58,079 bases of DNA. Origin: Peptococcaceae bacterium (lineage in GTDB: Bacteria; Bacillota; DSM-12270; Thermacetogeniales; Thermacetogeniaceae). Under the pieces are notes generated by a model, which worked only from the letters and a program-made list of their open reading frames with translations, had not been told where the DNA came from and did no database searches. The DNA is taken from positions 1 to 58,079 of the forward strand of contig JAHFCR010000016.1 in the NCBI GenBank assembly GCA_023249405.1, in the 5' to 3' direction. Below are positions 2,362 through 58,079 of this stretch, piece after piece. Positions within the stretch are counted from its first letter, which is position 1. The number at the start of each line of letters is the position of its first letter. A program made the position numbers and the translations under genes.

Positions 2362-2615
2362 TCCGAATCACCCTCTCGTTATATTTTTTACCGGATTGAC
2401 ATCTGTCAACCTGGTAAGATTGCCATAATTTTGGATCATATCTTAAAGAAAGTCAAATGTTGTGCCTGAATCGAATGTGCAACCATGGGGTCGACGTGCC
2501 TATGATGTCAAGATTAACTTTGGTCAGACTTGGGATTACTAAAGTTGAACTGGCAGGGAATACAAAGAAACTAAAGAATAGTAACTTAGCTGTCAAACTT
2601 TATGGGAGTGATCCA

Positions 2616-3503
2616 ATGCGTCTTTTCAGGCCAAATGTTCAGAAGATGATGAAGAAAAAAGATGTGAACGGTTTGATCAGGGCCATAGGAGATGCCGAAA
2701 GGCATGTCCGCCTTGCCGCCATCGAGGCCTTAGGAGACATCGGCGATACCCGGGCCGTTGAGCCGCTCATTGCCGCTCTCAAGGACAGTAGCTGGGGTGT
2801 GCGGCAATATGCTGCTACAGCTTTAGGGGCCATCGGCGATACCCGGGCCGTCAAGCCGCTCACGGCTGCTTTCAAGGATAATAAAAAAATTGTTCGTAAG
2901 GCAGCCGCCGAAGCCCTGGCGAAGATCGGGCTCTCGGTTGAACCCGAGGCACAGGCATGGTATTTGGTAGCATTGGAGGAATGGTCCCGGGTTATTCCTT
3001 TAGGGGAGTCGGCGATAGAGCCGCTCGTGACTGCTCTCAGAGAGGGCGAAGTGTGCGCTGCCAATGCCTTGGGGGAGATTGGCAGCGTGCGGGCGCTGGA
3101 GCCGCTCTCAGCTGCCCTCAAAGAGGATGATTATTATTTGCGTAAGGCCGCTGCTGCGGCTATAGGCAAGATCGGCATGCCATATGAACCCGAGGGGCAG
3201 GCATGGTACGCAGTAGAAATAGGTGACTGGGACCTGGTGGATACATTGGGACTAGTAGCCGTGGAGCCGCTCATTTTTAAGCTCACCAAATATAAGGACA
3301 TTGGAAAAGGATACGCGGCGCGCAATGCTGCTATAAGGCTTCAGGCACTGTATCGCTCCGGAAAGCTCAGCGACATGGACAAACAAAAAATTCTTTACGT
3401 AGGCAGCATCATGACCAAACCTCATATGGATCACAGTGAGGTTTTTGATGAAGATCCCGATCTGGCTGAACATGAGGACTATGGCATCGGAGTGGAACTG
3501 TAG
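2616..3503 (+). CDS. HEAT-repeat (PBS-lyase type) scaffold protein
   Basis: A 295-residue protein built of about five HEAT-like repeats. The canonical unit appears as [20 protein letters not shown] and again as [20 protein letters not shown], and two repeats carry the EPEAQAWY-type insertion. HEAT proteins are protein-binding solenoids without catalysis. The C-terminus (about residues 262-295) leaves the repeat pattern and is acidic, ending in [11 protein letters not shown]. Start ATG 2616 is preferred because GGGAGTGAT lies just upstream and the family often starts with a short basic segment; the frame is open back to 2457 without family similarity. Its stop TAG shares a base with the GTG start of the radical SAM gene, so the two are translationally coupled. 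Confidence 0.85.
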
Positions 3504-4720
3504 TGCCCCTCAGCCTCATGCTGATGCCATCTTACTCCTGCCCCGCCAAATGCAGTTACTGTTTCGGCCCGTGGGGCAATGATGTGATGGGCGCTGATAT
3601 TTTAAAGATGGCACTCGCATGGCTTGATGATCTGCAGCGTGACGGGAAGATAGATCAACTGGGCGTCGTCTTCCACGGCGGAGAGCCGCTGACCGCCGGA
3701 GTGGACTTCTTTAGCCGGTCTCTGCCCCGCCTGAGGCAAACCATCAGGTCAAAGAGATCGAGGATGAGCGCGCAGAGCAATCTCTGGCTGCTCACCGCTG
3801 AATTTTGTGAACTGTTTGCGGAATATGGCGTGTCGTTGGGTACCAGCCTGGATGGGCCGGAGACTATCACCGATGTCCAGCGCGGGCAGGGCTATTTCCG
3901 CCGTACCATGGCTGGCATTGAGCTTGCACGGAGGCATGGACTGAAGGTCGGATGCATCTGCACCATTACCAGCCAATCGGCGCCCCGTGCCGGTGAGATA
4001 TTGGACTTCTTTATTCGTGAGGGCCTCAACTTTTCTATTCATGCAGCCGTTCTCCCGCTAATCGATTCCGGCTTGGCTGCCGGGCCTCCTTCTGCTCCTT
4101 GGGCGCTCCCGCCAAATGTTTACGGAGGCTTGCTGGTAGATCTGCTGGACTCCTACCTTGTTAATACCAAACGGATCCGTATCAATACCCTCGATCAGCT
4201 CAGTCGCAGCATCTCCTCGGGTGAGGGATGCACATGCACCTATCGTGATTGTCTGGGAGACTACCTGGCCATAGCTCCGGACGGAAGCATCTATCCATGT
4301 CAGCGATTTGCAGGGCTGTGTTCATACCGCCTCGGTTATGTACAGGAACGCCCCAGTCTGGAGCGGTTGCGGCGGTCACCCGCATGGCAAATGCTCCGGG
4401 AGCGTGAGGAGCGCATTGCCGGAGCATGCGGCAGCTGTTCATATTTCCACCTATGCAAGGGGGGCTGCCCCTATAATGCACTGGCAGCCGGAGGCGGTTC
4501 TTTTAACGGTGGCCTGAAGGATCCTTATTGCTCCTCCTATCAGCGCATCTTCTCCCGCATCACCGAGCGCGCCCTGGCGGAGGTCTTTTCCGAGGAAAAC
4601 CTGCAGGATGTGGCAGAGCAGCCGGGAGACGACCTGTTGCGCCAGGGCCCCCTTCTGACCATCATGCGAGGTGGCCCTCACCCGCGGGCATCCGTCGGCA
4701 CACAAGGAACTAAAAAATAG
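3503..4720 (+). CDS. Radical SAM/SPASM-domain protein (putative peptide or protein maturase)
   Basis: 405 residues. The CxxxCxxC motif (C13, C17, C20, in SCPAKCSYC) binds the [4Fe-4S]-SAM cluster. FHGGEPL near 52-58 and LGTSLDGPE near 112 are typical of the anaerobic sulfatase-maturase/SPASM group. A C-terminal SPASM region carries many Cys (CTCTYRDC, YPCQRF, ACGSC, LCKGGCP, DPYC) that would bind auxiliary clusters. Known relatives modify ribosomal peptides or protein side chains. The start is GTG 3503, with GGAGTGG about ten bases upstream inside the HEAT gene, and the one-base stop/start overlap implies coupling. No sulfatase and no obvious precursor peptide is nearby. The HEAT partner is the only candidate substrate or scaffold visible here. 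The exact subfamily is unknown. Confidence 0.85.
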   Translation: MPLSLMLMPSYSCPAKCSYCFGPWGNDVMGADILKMALAWLDDLQRDGKIDQLGVVFHGGEPLTAGVDFFSRSLPRLRQTIRSKRSRMSAQSNLWLLTAEFCELFAEYGVSLGTSLDGPETITDVQRGQGYFRRTMAGIELARRHGLKVGCICTITSQSAPRAGEILDFFIREGLNFSIHAAVLPLIDSGLAAGPPSAPWALPPNVYGGLLVDLLDSYLVNTKRIRINTLDQLSRSISSGEGCTCTYRDCLGDYLAIAPDGSIYPCQRFAGLCSYRLGYVQERPSLERLRRSPAWQMLREREERIAGACGSCSYFHLCKGGCPYNALAAGGGSFNGGLKDPYCSSYQRIFSRITERALAEVFSEENLQDVAEQPGDDLLRQGPLLTIMRGGPHPRASVGTQGTKK

Positions 4721-17668: not shown

Positions 17669-18778
17669 ATGGCACAGGCTAGCGATCTCTACGACGAGCG
17701 TTTACAACGCATTAAAACGGCGGTGGCTCTGGCCAAGCCGGACCGGGTTCCCTGCGTGCCGCTTGGAGATTCTTTTGCCGCCAAGCTGGTCGGGGAGAAA
17801 CTGTCGGTCTTCTGTACCGGTAGGCCGGAGGCTGCCTACAAGACTATGATCAGGGCGTTTACCAGTCTGGGAGAGATCGACGGAATCCAGCACGCCGGTT
17901 TTGACGCCAACATGCTGAGCACGATCTGGCTGTCCAAGGTCAGGATGCCGGGTGTGGATCTGCCGGAGGATAACCTGTGGCAGGTCGAAGAGCAGGAATT
18001 GATGAAACCCGAGGATTATGACGTGATCATCAAGGATGGCTGGCAGAAGTTCACCGATGATTTTTGGCTGAACAAGCTGGACAACCTGGGGGCCAGAGTA
18101 CAGCCGTTCTTTGCCTCCATGCCGGCGGCGATGCAGGCCTGGAAAGACCTCGGCATCGTGCCCTTCTCGCCGGTGATCGTCACCATCCCCTACGAGTACT
18201 TCTGCGGAGCCCGATCCATGCGCGAGTTTATCAAGGACCTGTACCGGCGGCCGGATAAGGTGCAGGAGGCCATGGACGTGGTCATGCCGGTTTTGGTGGA
18301 ACAGGCCCGGCAATTGGCGCGCGGCTTGAACCTGCACGGCCTATGGGTGGGCGGCTGGCGCTCCGCCAGCGAGTTCCTCTCCCGCCCGCTGTGGGAGCGC
18401 TTCGTCTTCCCCTATTATAAGCAGATAGTCGAGGCCCTGGTGGATGAAGGCGCCATCCCGGTGCTACACTGGGATTCCAACTGGACGCGAGACCTGGAGT
18501 ACTTGCTGCAGTTTCCCAAGGCCAAGTGCGTTTTCTCTCCCGACGGCGCCACGGACATCTTCAAGGCCAAGGAGGTACTGGGCGATCACATGTGCATCAT
18601 GGGAGACGTCCCTGCGGAGATGCTGGCGCTGGCCACTCCCGAGAAGGTTACCGAGTACTGTAAACGGCTGATCTCCGAGATTGGCCCATCCGGTTTCATC
18701 CTGGCGCAGGGATGTGACATTCCGCCCAACGCCAAACCCGAGAACGTGCGGGCAATGATCGCCTCTGTCCACCAATAG
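17669..18778 (+). CDS. UroD-fold (MtaA/MtbA-like) methyltransferase with altered zinc motif
   Basis: 369 residues of the uroporphyrinogen-decarboxylase superfamily. Members near corrinoid proteins are cobamide-dependent methyltransferases (MtaA/MtbA and several O-demethylase components), not haem enzymes. In MtaA-like enzymes zinc is held by HxC...C. Here the site reads HWD (H267, D269) with Cys349 in QGCDIPP, so Asp replaces the first Cys. Other conserved blocks are PDGATDIFKAKEVLGDH and the GDVP loop. The start is ATG 17669, one base after the corrinoid gene stop, with GGGGGTGAACTGAG upstream. The methyl donor is unknown; methoxylated aromatics, methanol or methylamines are all possible for the family. 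Confidence 0.85.
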   Translation: MAQASDLYDERLQRIKTAVALAKPDRVPCVPLGDSFAAKLVGEKLSVFCTGRPEAAYKTMIRAFTSLGEIDGIQHAGFDANMLSTIWLSKVRMPGVDLPEDNLWQVEEQELMKPEDYDVIIKDGWQKFTDDFWLNKLDNLGARVQPFFASMPAAMQAWKDLGIVPFSPVIVTIPYEYFCGARSMREFIKDLYRRPDKVQEAMDVVMPVLVEQARQLARGLNLHGLWVGGWRSASEFLSRPLWERFVFPYYKQIVEALVDEGAIPVLHWDSNWTRDLEYLLQFPKAKCVFSPDGATDIFKAKEVLGDHMCIMGDVPAEMLALATPEKVTEYCKRLISEIGPSGFILAQGCDIPPNAKPENVRAMIASVHQ

Positions 18779-51114: not shown

Positions 51115-51509
51115 GGCGATCACTCCTTATAAAGTTTGCGATAAAAACGCGGATTTTAGAAGCGCAGTTAAGAGAGACACAGTATAGTATTGGCTGGTAT
51201 TATATAAAATCCTGCAATGTGATAAATAACTTGAGATAATATTGCAACAAGGCTGGAAGGAGCATTAGTATAACGTGAACTAATAAAAACTATGCAGGAT
51301 AATTATGTCCGGGCTCGAAACTAATTAGTGGTTGGCCCGAGCGTCTAATTTCAACCCGGTCATGCCTCGATGATTAATCAGCAGCAGTTCCTGACCGCCA
51401 CGGCTTGCCCTGCCAGCTTCAGTGCCCGAACAACACTGGTGCGGGAGGATCGTGCCAACTGGCCAGGGTGTTTTATCAACCTCTATTAAAGAAACAGGAG
51501 GAATGGAGA
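51115..51509. other. Divergent intergenic region before methyl-transfer module 2
   Basis: 395 bases between the double-cubane gene and the first module-2 gene. AT-rich near the left side, with no gene and no recognisable riboswitch. Both transcripts' promoters should lie here but no clear -35/-10 or sigma-54 site stands out. Confidence 0.3.
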
Positions 51510-52613
51510 ATGAGCGCTGAAATACCCGAAGATCGGATGACGCCGCGCCAGCGGATGGCAGCTTTTGCAACCGGCCGGGAGATCGACCGCCTGCCCTGCT
51601 CGCCGCTGATCGGGGAGCATGCGTGCCGCCTGACCGGTGTCACCGTCTCCCGCTACAGCCACTCTGCGGAACTGATGGCGGAGGCGCAAATAGCGGCCTT
51701 CCGCGCCTACCGGCCGGACTCCATCGGTTTCGGCCCCGGCCTGTTCGGCATCGCCGAGGCGATGGGCACCAGGCTGGCCTTTCCCGAGAACGGTATGCCC
51801 TATGTGGAGGACCCGGCATTGAAAGACTGGGCGGATCTCGACCGGCTGGCGCCAGCCGACCCGCACCGGGACGGGCGCTTGCCCCTGTATCTGCGGGCGC
51901 TGGAGATCGTCAGGGAGCAGATCGGCAGTGAGGCGCCGGTGGGCAGTTCCGTGGGCGGCCCATTCACCGCCGCCGCCAACCTGCGCGGCACCGTCGACTT
52001 CCTCAAAGACCTGCTCCGTCGCCCGGAGCAGGTGCACCGCCTGCTGCGGCTGGTGACGGAAAGCGCCCTGCGCTTCATCGATGCGGTCTGCGACCTGGGC
52101 CTGAAGCCCGGCATATCCGAGCCGACCGCCTCGGGAACGGTGATCAGCGCCTCCCAGTTCCGGGAGTTTGCCCAGCCCTATCTCAAGTTGTATGCCGACC
52201 GGATCATCGAACGCTGCGGCAGCGGGCCGCAACTGCACATCTGCGGGGATACCAGCCGCATCTGGCCGGAGATGGCAGATACCGGCGCCGGCACCCTCAG
52301 CCTGGACAACATGAACGACCTGGCTGAGGCCAAGGCGGCCGTGGGCAAGCGGGTCTGCCTGACTGGCAACGTGCACCCGGTGATGACCCTGATGCGGGGC
52401 ACCCGCGACCAGGTGCTGTCCGAGGCCCGGGAATGTATCCGCAAGGCCTACGACAGCCCTAAGGGGTACATTCTCTCCTCCGGCTGTGCCCTGCCCCTGG
52501 ACACGCCGCCGGATAATGTCGTCGCCCTGATGGACGCCGCCCGGACTTACGGCCGCTGGCCGATCGATCCTGAGCGGTTGATGGCGGGTCCTGTTTCAGC
52601 CGGGGCCCGATGA
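51510..52613 (+). CDS. UroD-fold (MtaA/MtbA-like) methyltransferase, tandem copy 1
   Basis: 367 residues. The zinc motif is canonical: H243-I-C245 and Cys326 (SSGCALPL). GFGPGLFGIAEAMGT and PHRDGRLPLYL are shared with the next gene. Start ATG 51510 has AGGAGG 8 bases before it; the longer open frame (from 51405) lacks similarity. It is followed by a close paralogue (shared segments such as TGAGTLSLDNMNDLAEAK), so the two likely arose by duplication. The methyl donor is unknown. Confidence 0.85.
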   Translation: MSAEIPEDRMTPRQRMAAFATGREIDRLPCSPLIGEHACRLTGVTVSRYSHSAELMAEAQIAAFRAYRPDSIGFGPGLFGIAEAMGTRLAFPENGMPYVEDPALKDWADLDRLAPADPHRDGRLPLYLRALEIVREQIGSEAPVGSSVGGPFTAAANLRGTVDFLKDLLRRPEQVHRLLRLVTESALRFIDAVCDLGLKPGISEPTASGTVISASQFREFAQPYLKLYADRIIERCGSGPQLHICGDTSRIWPEMADTGAGTLSLDNMNDLAEAKAAVGKRVCLTGNVHPVMTLMRGTRDQVLSEARECIRKAYDSPKGYILSSGCALPLDTPPDNVVALMDAARTYGRWPIDPERLMAGPVSAGAR

Positions 52614-52738: not shown

Positions 52739-53818
52739 GTGAGCGTTGAGTTGCGGGAAGATCGGATGACCTCTAAGGAAAGAATGGATGCCTTCGCCGC
52801 GGGGAAGGAGATCGACCGTATCCCCTGTGCTCTGTTTCTGGGGGAGACGGCGGCGCGCTTCATCGGCAAGACTATCTCTGAGTATCACCACTCGCCGGCG
52901 GTAATGGCGGAAGTGGAGATGGCCGTCTTCCGGATGTTCGGCCAGGACGGCGCCGGGGTTGGCCCAGGCCTGTTCGGCATCGCCGAGGCGATGGGCACCA
53001 GGTTGAGTTTCCCCGACGACGGCATTGCCTTTGTAGCAGAACCGGCATTAAAGGACTGGTCGGACCTGGACCGGCTACAACCGCCGGACCCGCACCGGGA
53101 CGGACGGCTGCCCCTGTGGTTGGAGGCGCTGCAGCTGCTCAAGGAAAAACTGGGAGATCAGGTATACGTGGGCAGCAGTGTGGGAGGCCCCTTTACCGTC
53201 GCCGCCTCCCTGCGCGGCACCCCGCAGTTTCTCAGGGACCTGAGAAAAAATACTGAGCTGGCCCACCGACTGCTGAAGCTGGCCACGGAGAGCACACTGA
53301 GGTATATCGATGCGGCCTGCGACCTGGGGATGCCTCCGGGATTTGCCGATCCGATCGCTTCAGGCACGGTGATCAGCGCCACCCAGTACCGCGAGTTTGC
53401 CCAGCCCTATTTGAAGATCTGTATGGACCGGGTCATCGAACGGTGCGGCAAGGGCACCATGCTGCATATCTGCGGCGACAGCAGCCGCATCTGGCCGGAA
53501 ATGGCCGCTACCGGCGCCGGCACCCTCAGCCTGGACAACATGAACGACCTGGCTGAGGCCAAGGTGGCCGTGGGCGATCGGGTGTGCCTGATGGGGAATG
53601 TGGCCCCGGTCACTACCATCGGCAAGGGAAAGCCGGAGGACGTCATCTCCGAGGCCAGGGCCTGCCTGCTCAAAGCTTACGACAGCCCGAAAGGGTATAT
53701 CCTGGCCCCGGGCTGTCAGATCCCCTTTGGGGCGCCGCTGGAAAATATCCAGGCCCTGATGGACGCCGCCAGGACTTACGGCCAATGGCCGATCGACCCC
53801 GAGCGCCTGAAATATTGA
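52739..53818 (+). CDS. UroD-fold methyltransferase, tandem copy 2
   Basis: 359 residues, aligning with the previous protein without gaps for at least the first 330 residues (H243, C245, Cys326 in APGCQIPF). N-terminal ELREDRMTSKERMDAFAAGK matches EIPEDRMTPRQRMAAFATGR. Start GTG 52739 has GAGGAGGG upstream. A 56-base block (53509-53564) is identical to 52280-52335 of the first copy although the rest is more diverged. It may handle a second substrate or form a heterodimer. Confidence 0.85.
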   Translation: MSVELREDRMTSKERMDAFAAGKEIDRIPCALFLGETAARFIGKTISEYHHSPAVMAEVEMAVFRMFGQDGAGVGPGLFGIAEAMGTRLSFPDDGIAFVAEPALKDWSDLDRLQPPDPHRDGRLPLWLEALQLLKEKLGDQVYVGSSVGGPFTVAASLRGTPQFLRDLRKNTELAHRLLKLATESTLRYIDAACDLGMPPGFADPIASGTVISATQYREFAQPYLKICMDRVIERCGKGTMLHICGDSSRIWPEMAATGAGTLSLDNMNDLAEAKVAVGDRVCLMGNVAPVTTIGKGKPEDVISEARACLLKAYDSPKGYILAPGCQIPFGAPLENIQALMDAARTYGQWPIDPERLKY

Positions 53819-54032: not shown

Positions 54033-54695
54033 ATGGCAGTGGAAGAGATACTGGAACGCCTGACCCGGGGAGTCCGGGACATGGATGAGGAGTTGGCCGC
54101 AGAGGCGGCGCAGGATGCCCTGGCCAACCAGATGCCGGCCCTGACCGCCATCAACGACGGCCTGGTCAGGGGTATGAACGAGGCCGGCCGGCTCTACGAG
54201 ACTCAGGAATACTTCGTGCCAGAACTGCTGCTCTGTTCGGACGCCATGTACGCCGGCCTGGGGATCCTGTCGCCTCACATTCAGCGGGCCGAAGAGGAGA
54301 GCAGGGCGAAGGTGGTGATCGGGGTGATGCAGGGCGACACCCATGACATCGGGAAGAACCTGGTCAAGCTGATGCTGGAGGTAGATGGGTTCGAAGTCTT
54401 CGATCTGGGGCGCGACGTGACTCCGGCCGATTTCGTGGCCAAGGTCAAGGAAACCGGGGCCGAACTGCTCGGCATGTCCACCCTGATGTCCACCACCATG
54501 GATGCCATGGGCGTGGCGATCCGGATGCTGCAGCAGGAAGGGCTGCGGGAACAGACAACGGTGATGATCGGTGGCGGGCCGATTTCCCAGGCCTTTGCGG
54601 ACCTGATCGGGGCTGACGGCTATGCTGAGAATGCCACCGGCGCCGTCCGTGAGGCCAGGCGGCTGTTGGCATCCAGAGGGGCTGCTGTCCGGTGA
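54033..54695 (+). CDS. Corrinoid protein, module 2
   Basis: 220 residues, MtaC/MtbC type. The cobalt-ligand motif is DTHDIGKN (D102, H104, G107), preceded by a helical cap and followed by LLGMSTLMSTTMDAM and IGGGPIS. Start ATG 54033 has ACGGAGG upstream. Its stop overlaps the next gene's GTG by 4 bases (GTGA), so the pair is coupled. It likely receives methyl groups from one or more of the UroD-fold enzymes. Confidence 0.92.
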   Translation: MAVEEILERLTRGVRDMDEELAAEAAQDALANQMPALTAINDGLVRGMNEAGRLYETQEYFVPELLLCSDAMYAGLGILSPHIQRAEEESRAKVVIGVMQGDTHDIGKNLVKLMLEVDGFEVFDLGRDVTPADFVAKVKETGAELLGMSTLMSTTMDAMGVAIRMLQQEGLREQTTVMIGGGPISQAFADLIGADGYAENATGAVREARRLLASRGAAVR

Positions 54696-55759
54696 TCAAC
54701 GCCAGAGACAGGCTGATCAGATCCCTGCAGGGGGGCCTGGTTGACCGCCCTCCGGTGATCAGTCCCGGCGGCATGATGAACATGGCGATTGTGCAGGTTA
54801 TGGAACAGACCGGCGCTCTCTGGCCGGAGGCGCACTGCAACCCGCGGACAATGTCCCGGCTCGCCCTCGGTGTGCAGCGGCTGACCGGTATGGAAAACCT
54901 GGGTGTGCCCTTCTGCATGACCGTGGAGGCAGAAGCGATGGGCGCCGCGGTGACCATGGGCGGCCTGGATAATGAGCCCCGGGTCACCGGCTACCCCCTG
55001 ACTGCGGTGGCGGATTGGCCGCGCCTGCAAGAGATCAGGACCGGCAGCGGCAGGGCGGCGGTGGTGGCCGAGGCGGTCAGCCTGCTGGCCGAAGCAGCTG
55101 CAGGAGGCAGCGAACTGCCGGTGATCGCCAACCTGACCGGACCGCTCAGCCTGGCCACCTCGCTGATCGAGCCGATGATCCTGTTCCGGGCGATGGGCAA
55201 GCAGTCCCAGGCGGTGCATGACCTGCTGGCTTTCATTACGGACAACCTGATCAACTTCGGACGGGCGTTGCTACAGGCCGGCGCCCATGTGTTGAGCATC
55301 GCCGATCCCAGCGCCTCCGGAGAGATATTGGGGCCGCGCCGGTTTGCCGAGTTCGCCCTGCCCTGCCTGAACCGGATGCTGGATGAACTGGGCACGGCAT
55401 ATCAGGCTCGCCTGGTGCACATCTGCGGCCAATTGAGCCCGATCTTTACGGAGATTGGCGCACTGCATACCGGGGCGATCAGCATCGACTCTGTCACCAG
55501 CATTGCCCGGCTCCGGGAGAACGTGCCGGACAAGGCCGTGGTGGGCAATGTCAGCACCCACCTGCTGTTGAACGGTGATCCGGACCGGATTGCGGCTGCT
55601 GCCCTTCACTGCCTCCGGCAGGGAGTAGCTGTGCTGGCGCCGGCCTGCGGCATCAGCCCCCGGACACCCCTGGTCAATCTCCAGGCGATGGCCCGGGCAA
55701 TAGAGGTCTTTGCCGATTCAGAACAGGTGCCGCTTGCCGTCCTTGAGCCGGACGCATAA
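54692..55759 (+). CDS. UroD-fold (MtaA/MtbA-like) methyltransferase, third of module 2
   Basis: 355 residues, only distantly similar to the two upstream copies. HICG (H243, C245) and Cys319 in APACGI keep the zinc triad. N-terminal MINARDRLIRSLQGGLVDRPP and PVISPGGMMNM are typical of the methylcobamide:CoM methyltransferase branch. As bacteria of this kind lack coenzyme M, the acceptor is more likely tetrahydrofolate or another thiol; that is inference. Start GTG 54692 overlaps the corrinoid gene's stop. Confidence 0.87.
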   Translation: MINARDRLIRSLQGGLVDRPPVISPGGMMNMAIVQVMEQTGALWPEAHCNPRTMSRLALGVQRLTGMENLGVPFCMTVEAEAMGAAVTMGGLDNEPRVTGYPLTAVADWPRLQEIRTGSGRAAVVAEAVSLLAEAAAGGSELPVIANLTGPLSLATSLIEPMILFRAMGKQSQAVHDLLAFITDNLINFGRALLQAGAHVLSIADPSASGEILGPRRFAEFALPCLNRMLDELGTAYQARLVHICGQLSPIFTEIGALHTGAISIDSVTSIARLRENVPDKAVVGNVSTHLLLNGDPDRIAAAALHCLRQGVAVLAPACGISPRTPLVNLQAMARAIEVFADSEQVPLAVLEPDA

Positions 55760-55951
55760 CAGACGGCGGGGTTTACGGCAAAGCTGATTGCCGGTAGCAG
55801 CTGGAGCAGATTCCATGCTGCGGGGAAGACAGCAAGAGGCCATGTGCAGCGTGACAACGCGGGGCCTTCTTAATGCTTTTTCGGTTAGAGACAGCAGCAG
55901 ACATATCTAGTAAAATCTAGATAGCAGCAAGGTTTCAGAGGAGGCTAACCG

Positions 55952-58079
55952 ATGCCGATCATCGAGAGGAAGCCTGCCATCTGTGGGGTCTGCCCCGGCG
56001 GCTGCGCCGTCGAGGTGGCCCTGGAGGATGGCCGGCTGGTGGACGTGGAAGGGCGGCCGGAGGCGCCCTATGGCAATCTCTGCGTGCGGGGCAAGCATGC
56101 CCCGGAGATCGTCTACGCACCGGAGCGGTTGAGGCGACCGCTGATCCGCACCGGTGAGCGGGGCAAGGGCAAGTTTCGGGAAGCATCCTGGGGTGAGGCC
56201 CTGGACTTGACGGTCAGCAAAATGCAGGAGATCAGGGCTAAATACGGCCCTCAGGCCCTGATCAGCCACTCCGGGCGCGGGGCCTTCGAACAGTCGATGT
56301 TGGAGTTCTGCAACTCCCCGCAGGATACGGTGGCCTCCAAACTGCTGTTGCCCTTCGGGTCGCCGAATATTGCCAGCACCGGCTCTCTCTGCTACACCTC
56401 TTATGGTATTCTGGCCCCGGCGCTCACCTTCGGCCTGCCTGGCAACCGGCTGCTGCCGGATCTGGAACAGAGCAAGCTGATCGTAGTCTGGGGCACCAAC
56501 CCGGTCACCGACTCCCCGCCCTCCTTTTTCAAGCGGATCATCAAGGCGCAGCAGAACGGCGCCCGGGTGATCGCCATCGACCACATGCGCTGCGATATCG
56601 CCCGCCGGGCTGACCAGTGGGTGGCGGTACGCTCCGGCACCGACGGCGCCCTGGCCCTGGGCCTGATCGATGTGATCATCGATGAAGGGCTGCTCGATCG
56701 GGAATTCGTGGAGCGTTGGACGGTAGGGTTCAAGGAGCTCCAGGCCTACGTGCGGCAGTTCACACCGGAGCGGGTGGAGCGGATCACCGGGGTGCCGGCG
56801 GAGACCGTGGTCTCCCTGGCCCGGGAGATCGCCGCCACTGAAAAAGTCAGCCTGCGCACCTATACCGGATTGGAGTATACCAACAGCGGCGTACAGAATA
56901 TCAGGGCAGTGTATCTCTTGTGGGCGCTCACCGGCCACCTGGATACGCCCGGCGGTCTGCTGATCAACCCGGTGCCGCGTCCGCCCCTGCAACGGGCGGA
57001 GATGCCGGCGCCGGATGACGTACTGCCGATCGGTGCCCGGGAATACCCGCTCTTCCATGCGCTGTCCGGGTCGGCCCAGTTCCTGGAGCTGCCCAAGGCG
57101 GTGCTGCAGGATGATCCTTACCCGGTCAGGGGTTTGCTGATCAATGGCTCTTCCACCCTGACCTCCTACCCCCAGCCGGAGGTCTTCGAGGATGTCTACC
57201 GCCGGCTCGATTTCCTGCTGGTGATCGACGTCATCGCCACCCGGGACACCCTGTTCGCCGATGTGGTGCTGCCGTCGGCCACCTACTACGAGATCGGCTC
57301 CTACCAGCGCTACCCTGATTACGTGCGCCTGAGACGGCGGGTGATCCCTCCGGTCGGCGAGTCGCGCAACCAGGTCATGATCCTGGCGGACCTGGCCCGG
57401 CGGCTGGGCTACGGCCACCTCTACCCGCAGAGCGAGGATGCCTTGATCGCGGCGGCGTTCGCCCAGGCTCCGGACCTGCTCCAACAGCTGCGGCAGAGCC
57501 CCGACGGAGTCAGGCTCACGCCTTCCGGGCGCCGGTACCGTCAATGGGAGAGCGGCGCCCTGCGCCCGGACGGCCAGCCCGGCTTTCCCACCCCCTCCGG
57601 CAAGGTGGAGATTGCCTCCAGCCTGCTGGCCAAGTATGGTTACGAGGCGCTGCCGGTCTACGTCGAACCGCAGGAGGGGCCCCTGGCCAGCGCCGCGATC
57701 CACGCCGAGTACCCGCTGGTATTGAATACCGGGGCGCGCATCCAGTCCACCTTTCGCTCCCAGCACCTGAACGTACCGGGACTGGTGCGGCTGCAGGAGC
57801 ATCCCCAGGTGCTGATCAACCCCAGGGATGCCAGGGAGCGGGGGATCGAGCAGGGTGACCGGGTGGTCGTAAGCACCAGGCGGGGGTGCGTACACTTTTG
57901 GGCGCGGGTCACCGGAGAGGTGCTGCCCGGCTGCGTGGAGGTCAACATGGGCGGGGGCAATCCTGGTCAGGTAGAAACCTGGCGTCAATCCAACGCCAAT
58001 CTCCTGACGGACTGGCAGAACCGCGATCCGATCTCCGGGTTCCCCGTGTTCAAGGCGCTGCTCTGCCAGGTGGCCAGGG
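55952..58079 (+). CDS. Molybdopterin oxidoreductase, catalytic subunit (3' end outside window)
   Basis: 709 residues are visible and the frame stays open to the last base. The N-terminal [4Fe-4S] motif is C11, C14, C18 and C44. GSPNIASTGSLCYTS holds Cys147, at the place where the PsrA/PhsA-like group has the Mo/W ligand Cys. VVWGTNPVTDSPPSFFKRI, DHMRCDIARRADQW, GLEYTNSGVQNIRA and a C-terminal TGARIQSTFRSQHLN (MGD-binding) fit the DMSO-reductase family. Start ATG 55952 follows AGAGGAGGCTAA. No twin-arginine signal is seen at the start, so it is probably cytoplasmic. It lies 192 bases after module 2. The substrate cannot be told; formate, sulfur compounds or an arylic acid are options. Confidence 0.9.
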   Translation, partial: MPIIERKPAICGVCPGGCAVEVALEDGRLVDVEGRPEAPYGNLCVRGKHAPEIVYAPERLRRPLIRTGERGKGKFREASWGEALDLTVSKMQEIRAKYGPQALISHSGRGAFEQSMLEFCNSPQDTVASKLLLPFGSPNIASTGSLCYTSYGILAPALTFGLPGNRLLPDLEQSKLIVVWGTNPVTDSPPSFFKRIIKAQQNGARVIAIDHMRCDIARRADQWVAVRSGTDGALALGLIDVIIDEGLLDREFVERWTVGFKELQAYVRQFTPERVERITGVPAETVVSLAREIAATEKVSLRTYTGLEYTNSGVQNIRAVYLLWALTGHLDTPGGLLINPVPRPPLQRAEMPAPDDVLPIGAREYPLFHALSGSAQFLELPKAVLQDDPYPVRGLLINGSSTLTSYPQPEVFEDVYRRLDFLLVIDVIATRDTLFADVVLPSATYYEIGSYQRYPDYVRLRRRVIPPVGESRNQVMILADLARRLGYGHLYPQSEDALIAAAFAQAPDLLQQLRQSPDGVRLTPSGRRYRQWESGALRPDGQPGFPTPSGKVEIASSLLAKYGYEALPVYVEPQEGPLASAAIHAEYPLVLNTGARIQSTFRSQHLNVPGLVRLQEHPQVLINPRDARERGIEQGDRVVVSTRRGCVHFWARVTGEVLPGCVEVNMGGGNPGQVETWRQSNANLLTDWQNRDPISGFPVFKALLCQVAR

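Follow-up and report, generated by a model that had tools for sequence, protein, structure and literature searches.

The window analyzed here is a 58,079-nucleotide stretch of DNA from a Peptococcaceae bacterium. It contains a HEAT-repeat gene and a radical SAM/SPASM gene, both on the forward strand. The HEAT-repeat gene (2616..3503) encodes a protein of 295 amino acid residues, starts with ATG at 2616, ends with TAG at 3501-3503, and is preceded by a Shine-Dalgarno-like GGGAG sequence (2604..2608). An alternative ATG at 2457 opens a longer frame upstream of 2616; the ATG at 2616 is the better start, because the orthologue of a congener begins at the same MRLFRPNV sequence. The radical SAM/SPASM gene (3503..4720), which belongs to family TIGR04083, encodes a protein of 405 residues and starts with GTG at 3503-3505. 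Its Shine-Dalgarno-like GGAG sequence (3489..3492) lies within the codons for the tail of the HEAT-repeat protein. As described in the original prediction, the HEAT stop codon and the radical SAM start codon have base 3503 in common. Promoter and terminator scans of the window give signals at chance level.

The HEAT frame matches the Pfam families HEAT_2 (1e-38) and HEAT_PBS (1e-23), and its AlphaFold2 model is an alpha-solenoid at residues 5-266, in blocks mostly with pLDDT values of 84-97. It is identified neither as the phycobilin lyase CpcE nor as NblB, because it scores only 65 and 60 bits against NCBIfam profiles with curated cut-offs of 330 and 300 bits respectively. The 3.57 Mb genome contains three HEAT_2 matches, all of which are located within this frame. 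Therefore, it is unlikely that the HEAT-repeat gene lies next to the radical SAM gene by chance.

The radical SAM/SPASM enzyme

The enzyme matches the Pfam families Radical_SAM (1e-12) and SPASM (2e-7). It contains the CxxxCxxC cluster motif (C13, C17 and C20; 3539..3562), which is invariant across seven homologues, and a SPASM region that extends from C245 to C343 (4235..4531), so that the cysteines expected of TIGR04083 are present in both regions. Its whole-protein score for TIGR04083 ("peptide-modifying radical SAM", rSAM_pep_methan) is 375.6 bits, against a curated NCBIfam cut-off of 300 bits. The profiles that follow score far below their own cut-offs. They are those of the sulfatase maturase TIGR03942 (155 bits; cut-off 349), DynA (154; cut-off 450), AmcB (115; cut-off 425), YhhB (103; cut-off 445) and GrrM/OscB (92; cut-off 310), and the last four are profiles of peptide cross-linkers. 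PRK13758, another sulfatase maturase, scores 104 bits, far under its cut-off.

TIGR04083 appears to have been named for its archaeal members. The control genome of Methanosarcina acetivorans matched the TIGR04083 search, indicating that archaea possess the family. A description of its substrate was not found in the literature and database sources searched. The one paper found that mentions radical SAM, SPASM and HEAT repeat together does so in unrelated contexts, and no description of the family or the pair was found in the literature searched. The original statement that no characterized system has this composition therefore agrees with the literature searched, but the enzyme is a member of a recognized NCBIfam family rather than an orphan.

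The AlphaFold2 model of the enzyme (pTM 0.81) most closely matches the anaerobic sulfatase-maturating enzyme anSME (PDB 4k36, TM 0.75) among the solved structures, followed by ChlB, CteB, TigE, SkfB and SuiB. Like the enzyme proposed here, anSME acts on a whole protein. The catalytic residue of anSME, Asp277, aligns with Gln267 in the SPASM region, and each of the seven homologues carries Gln or Glu at this position. Cys151 (window 3953-3955) is located outside the cluster motifs, is invariant in the seven homologues and corresponds to Ile in anSME. It is a candidate catalytic residue, judging from the alignment. A RiPP recognition element (RRE) or PqqD-like domain is not seen in the enzyme, and the radical SAM core starts directly at the N-terminus. 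This arrangement suggests that substrate recognition is probably provided from elsewhere.

The C-terminal tail of the HEAT-repeat protein

The solenoid is followed by a C-terminal tail (residues 267-295; 3414..3500), which is the proposed core segment. It is predicted to be disordered, with pLDDT values below 50 in the AlphaFold2 model. The tail contains a first HxD site, H-M-D, at residues 270-272 (3423..3431), and a second HxD site with a GIG signature at residues 286-295 (3471..3500). Counterparts of the second site are found on contigs L001, L019, L021 and L030. The motif of the tail is written as HxD...HxDxG[IV]G[IV][DE][FL], in which the second HxD is part of HxDxG[IV]G[IV][DE][FL].

When the tail is compared with that of a congener, 25 of 28 aligned residues are identical, as against 70% in the body of the protein, and the pN and pS values of the tail are 0.07 and 0.81 respectively. 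This result indicates that the disordered tail is under purifying selection in the genus of the window. In Coatesbacteria the whole tail evolves as fast as the body or faster, and only the motif residues are held. The ends of the Coatesbacteria-type tails, HTDTAGSGGLHTDVGIGIEFPDEP, HSDTAGGGRHSDVGVGIEFPNEP and HSDTSGGGHHSDRGIGVDFPDEP, agree with that of the window. The conserved features of the tail are the two HxD sites and GIGV[ED]. Five HEAT-repeat proteins contain exactly two HxD each, all sited in the tail, and these provide the aromatic-x-x' motif that is expected of triceptide substrates. A conserved cysteine is not present in the five tails, the window tail contains no cysteine at all, and a sulfatase motif is not present. 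The other HEAT proteins of these genomes do not carry the tail. The original prediction drew attention to the acidity of the tail. The tail is acidic in the window, but those of Coatesbacteria are not markedly so, and acidity is discarded as a signal, because it is not conserved.

Distribution of the enzyme and the tail

TIGR04083 is rare. It is detected in three of 20 genomes of the class of the window, in 3 of 398 genomes of an even sample of the phylum, and in one of 83 genomes of the class of genome G196, where a wider search added no member. The sole close match in genome contigs is that of a Candidatus Coatesbacteria MAG (L001; 43%), and three of the four Candidatus Coatesbacteria genomes examined contain the family. 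In these three genomes (contigs L001, L019 and L021) a HEAT gene encoding 204-205 residues lies directly downstream of the enzyme gene. The tails of these proteins contain HTD..HTDVGIGIEF (G020/L001), HSD..HSDVGVGIEF (G404/L019) and HSD..HSDRGIGVDF (G405/L021), and their bodies resemble that of the window protein at 32-37%, which does not exceed the general level for HEAT repeats. The order of the two genes is the reverse of that in the window, and therefore the pairing is not simply inherited synteny. The fourth genome of this group, G406, contains neither the enzyme nor the tail. Genes of a dipeptide/oligopeptide-type ABC transporter flank the pair on L001, L019 and L021, on differing sides and strands.

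In two congeners, G013 and G014, the enzyme is 68% identical to that of the window and its gene lies upstream of dprA without a HEAT neighbour. In both (L023:2912-4150 and L024), the radical SAM gene is located between a comM-like gene and dprA, unlike in the window; the comM-like gene adjoins it directly in G013, and other genes intervene in G014. The overlap of the two genes, which the original prediction emphasized, is therefore a local feature, and is rejected as the main evidence, because it is not conserved in the genus.

The DNA pattern for HxDxG[IV]G[IV][DE][FL] was run over 19 genomes. It was derived from the tails of the window and Coatesbacteria and was built before the HEAT gene of G013 was seen, so that the matches to the window and to the three Coatesbacteria-type tails arise by construction, and the G013 match and the negative results constitute the test. 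The pattern matches these four tails and one place in G013, and only once in the genome of the window. In G013 the matching place is where a HEAT gene ends; this gene is 71% identical to that of the window and is located on another contig. Homologues of the enzyme without a HEAT neighbour had been expected to speak against the pairing; they exist in the two congeners, but one of these, G013, keeps a tailed HEAT gene elsewhere. A tailed HEAT gene is not detected by the pattern in G014, which is 84% complete and contains the enzyme, and the only HEAT_2 match of this genome is an unrelated frame of 813 residues.

In the 398 genomes of the phylum, the tail pattern gives four matches besides the window, none of which is a HEAT tail: they lie in the interior of an AraC-type regulator and in ORFs without resemblance to HEAT. 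The reversed control pattern gives no match in the same genomes. Thus, the tail is present in five of the six genomes in which the enzyme scores over its cut-off, and on a HEAT protein in none of the 395 sampled phylum genomes without TIGR04083. The full tail is shown by two independent lineages only. Several other matches were rejected. The narrower pattern DxGIG[IVM]E[FL] gives two extra matches in G000, outside HEAT ORFs and in frames that look antisense or non-genic. The radical SAM enzymes of viral contigs and phage records are all distant (20-31% identical), and a single viral match to the tail is not a HEAT ORF. Plasmid matches are all below 60% identity (25-27% among the matches listed).

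The locus of G196 is suggestive only as a third case of the pairing. Its double radical SAM protein of 729 residues (L022:8058-10247, G196:C1) carries each of the radical SAM and SPASM domains twice, in tandem, and the first copy is of the TIGR04083 type (295 bits). The start of this gene overlaps the stop of a gene for a 434-residue protein by four bases, and a gene for a 316-residue protein lies downstream. These two proteins have no Pfam HEAT match and appear helical-repeat-like by eye. The neighbours carry HxD sites without the GIG motif, and the number of these sites is near chance (shuffle P 0.04-0.10; 0.06 and 0.10 for the two flanking proteins). Proteins like these neighbours are scarce in the family to which G196 belongs. 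A nearby protein of 381 residues, which has no Pfam match, ends with HVDHGDEDDHGDRYLTLIQPHT.

Proposed modification of the tail and alternative explanations

These results suggest that the enzyme and the HEAT-repeat protein probably form a protein-modifying pair, in which the solenoid serves as the leader and the HxD-bearing tail is modified. With its folded HEAT domain and its flexible, conserved end, the HEAT-repeat protein has a leader-plus-core arrangement. The TIGR04083 enzyme would recognize the folded solenoid in place of a leader peptide, and would modify the flexible tail at its two HxD sites. We infer that the enzyme acts on the tail and that its recognition element is the HEAT domain. 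The original prediction, in which the HEAT-repeat protein is the partner of the enzyme and probably its substrate, is thereby partly supported, by the tail motif common to two unrelated lineages and not by the gene overlap. It had also been stated that neither a sulfatase nor a short precursor is encoded nearby. This is borne out by a Pfam scan of 24 ORFs of the window, including most of the larger ones, which reveals no sulfatase, and by the short ORFs in the flanking gaps, none of which is a plausible precursor.

Three-residue cyclophane formation is the likeliest of the known chemistries, because the tails contain no conserved cysteine and no sulfatase motif and their His and Asp residues are at positions i and i+2. 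Thioether chemistry of the sactipeptide or ranthipeptide type is rejected, because the tails lack a conserved cysteine. The triceptide maturases (3-CyFEs YhhB, HaaB, GrrM/OscB and YxdB) belong to the SPASM enzymes and connect an aromatic residue at i with the Cb of i+2. According to the excerpted text of PMC11002830, His at i is joined to the Cb at i+2 in the products of HaaB and YhhB, and Tyr or Trp is joined to the Cb of Asp in those of YxdB and OscB. Thus, His and Asp are each known as partners, but the triceptide products given in this text (PMC11002830) do not include one in which His is linked to Asp. These maturases differ from the window enzyme in that they act on short precursor peptides, and the window enzyme scores under their cut-offs. 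DynA, the dynobactin maturase and third-best NCBIfam profile, cross-links Tyr and His over two positions, but its substrate is also a short precursor peptide. By analogy with these products, each HxD site might become a three-residue cyclophane that links His to Asp (i to i+2), but this is speculative. The HxD sites may instead undergo epimerization, hydroxylation or decarboxylation. The modified tail would remain attached and give the protein a functional end that is rigid or binds metal. For the role of the finished protein, our guess is a tail that is modified permanently and serves interaction or metal binding. The most detailed form of this proposal, in which two cross-links join the imidazole to the Cb (i to i+2), the solenoid is a permanent leader and the product is a working cyclophane-tailed protein, is tentative and somewhat doubtful.

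Alternatively, the HEAT-repeat protein may be an adaptor, whose tail docks on the enzyme and whose solenoid presents another, unlinked protein. HEAT solenoids bind proteins, a conserved disordered tail also resembles a docking motif, and the HEAT and enzyme genes need not be linked. However, other candidate substrates are not seen, the HxDxGIG motif is unique in the genome, and the invariant His and Asp residues with their small neighbours resemble reactive sites rather than a docking motif of the usual kind, so that an adaptor is unlikely. It is less likely still that the HxD sites serve metal binding or another ordinary function of the tail, and that the enzyme acts elsewhere, with the neighbourhood reflecting a shared pathway only. 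Paired His and Asp residues can bind metal, and two enzyme-bearing genomes, G014 and G196, show no tail; but the tail goes with the enzyme in both of the unrelated lineages, and no enzyme-less genome tested has this tail on a HEAT protein. A role of the enzyme as anaerobic sulfatase maturase for a sulfatase encoded elsewhere, with an incidental HEAT gene, is highly improbable in spite of its structural likeness to anSME and its TIGR03942 score, because this score is far under the cut-off whereas that of TIGR04083 exceeds its own, a different residue stands in place of the catalytic Asp277, no sulfatase is found among the scanned ORFs of the window, and the co-occurrence of the tail is left unexplained.

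If the enzyme and the HEAT-repeat protein are a modifying pair, a family annotated only as 'peptide-modifying' gains a concrete candidate substrate with named residues; for TIGR04083, this would be the tail of a HEAT-repeat protein, in bacteria. Genome mining for such maturases usually seeks small ORFs. Searches for short precursors may miss targets such as this one, which is the tail of a protein of 204-296 residues and is sometimes unlinked to the enzyme. The occurrence of the same enzyme and tail in unrelated bacteria suggests that the enzyme chemically alters a complete folded protein at its end, and not a small peptide.

Near the end of the window, an ORF of 693 residues on the minus strand (55907-57988) has no Pfam match at 1e-5. 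The window also contains four genes of the uroporphyrinogen-decarboxylase family (17669-18778, 51405-52613, 52739-53818 and 54692-55759), three of which are nearly consecutive. These genes perhaps encode corrinoid methyltransferases.
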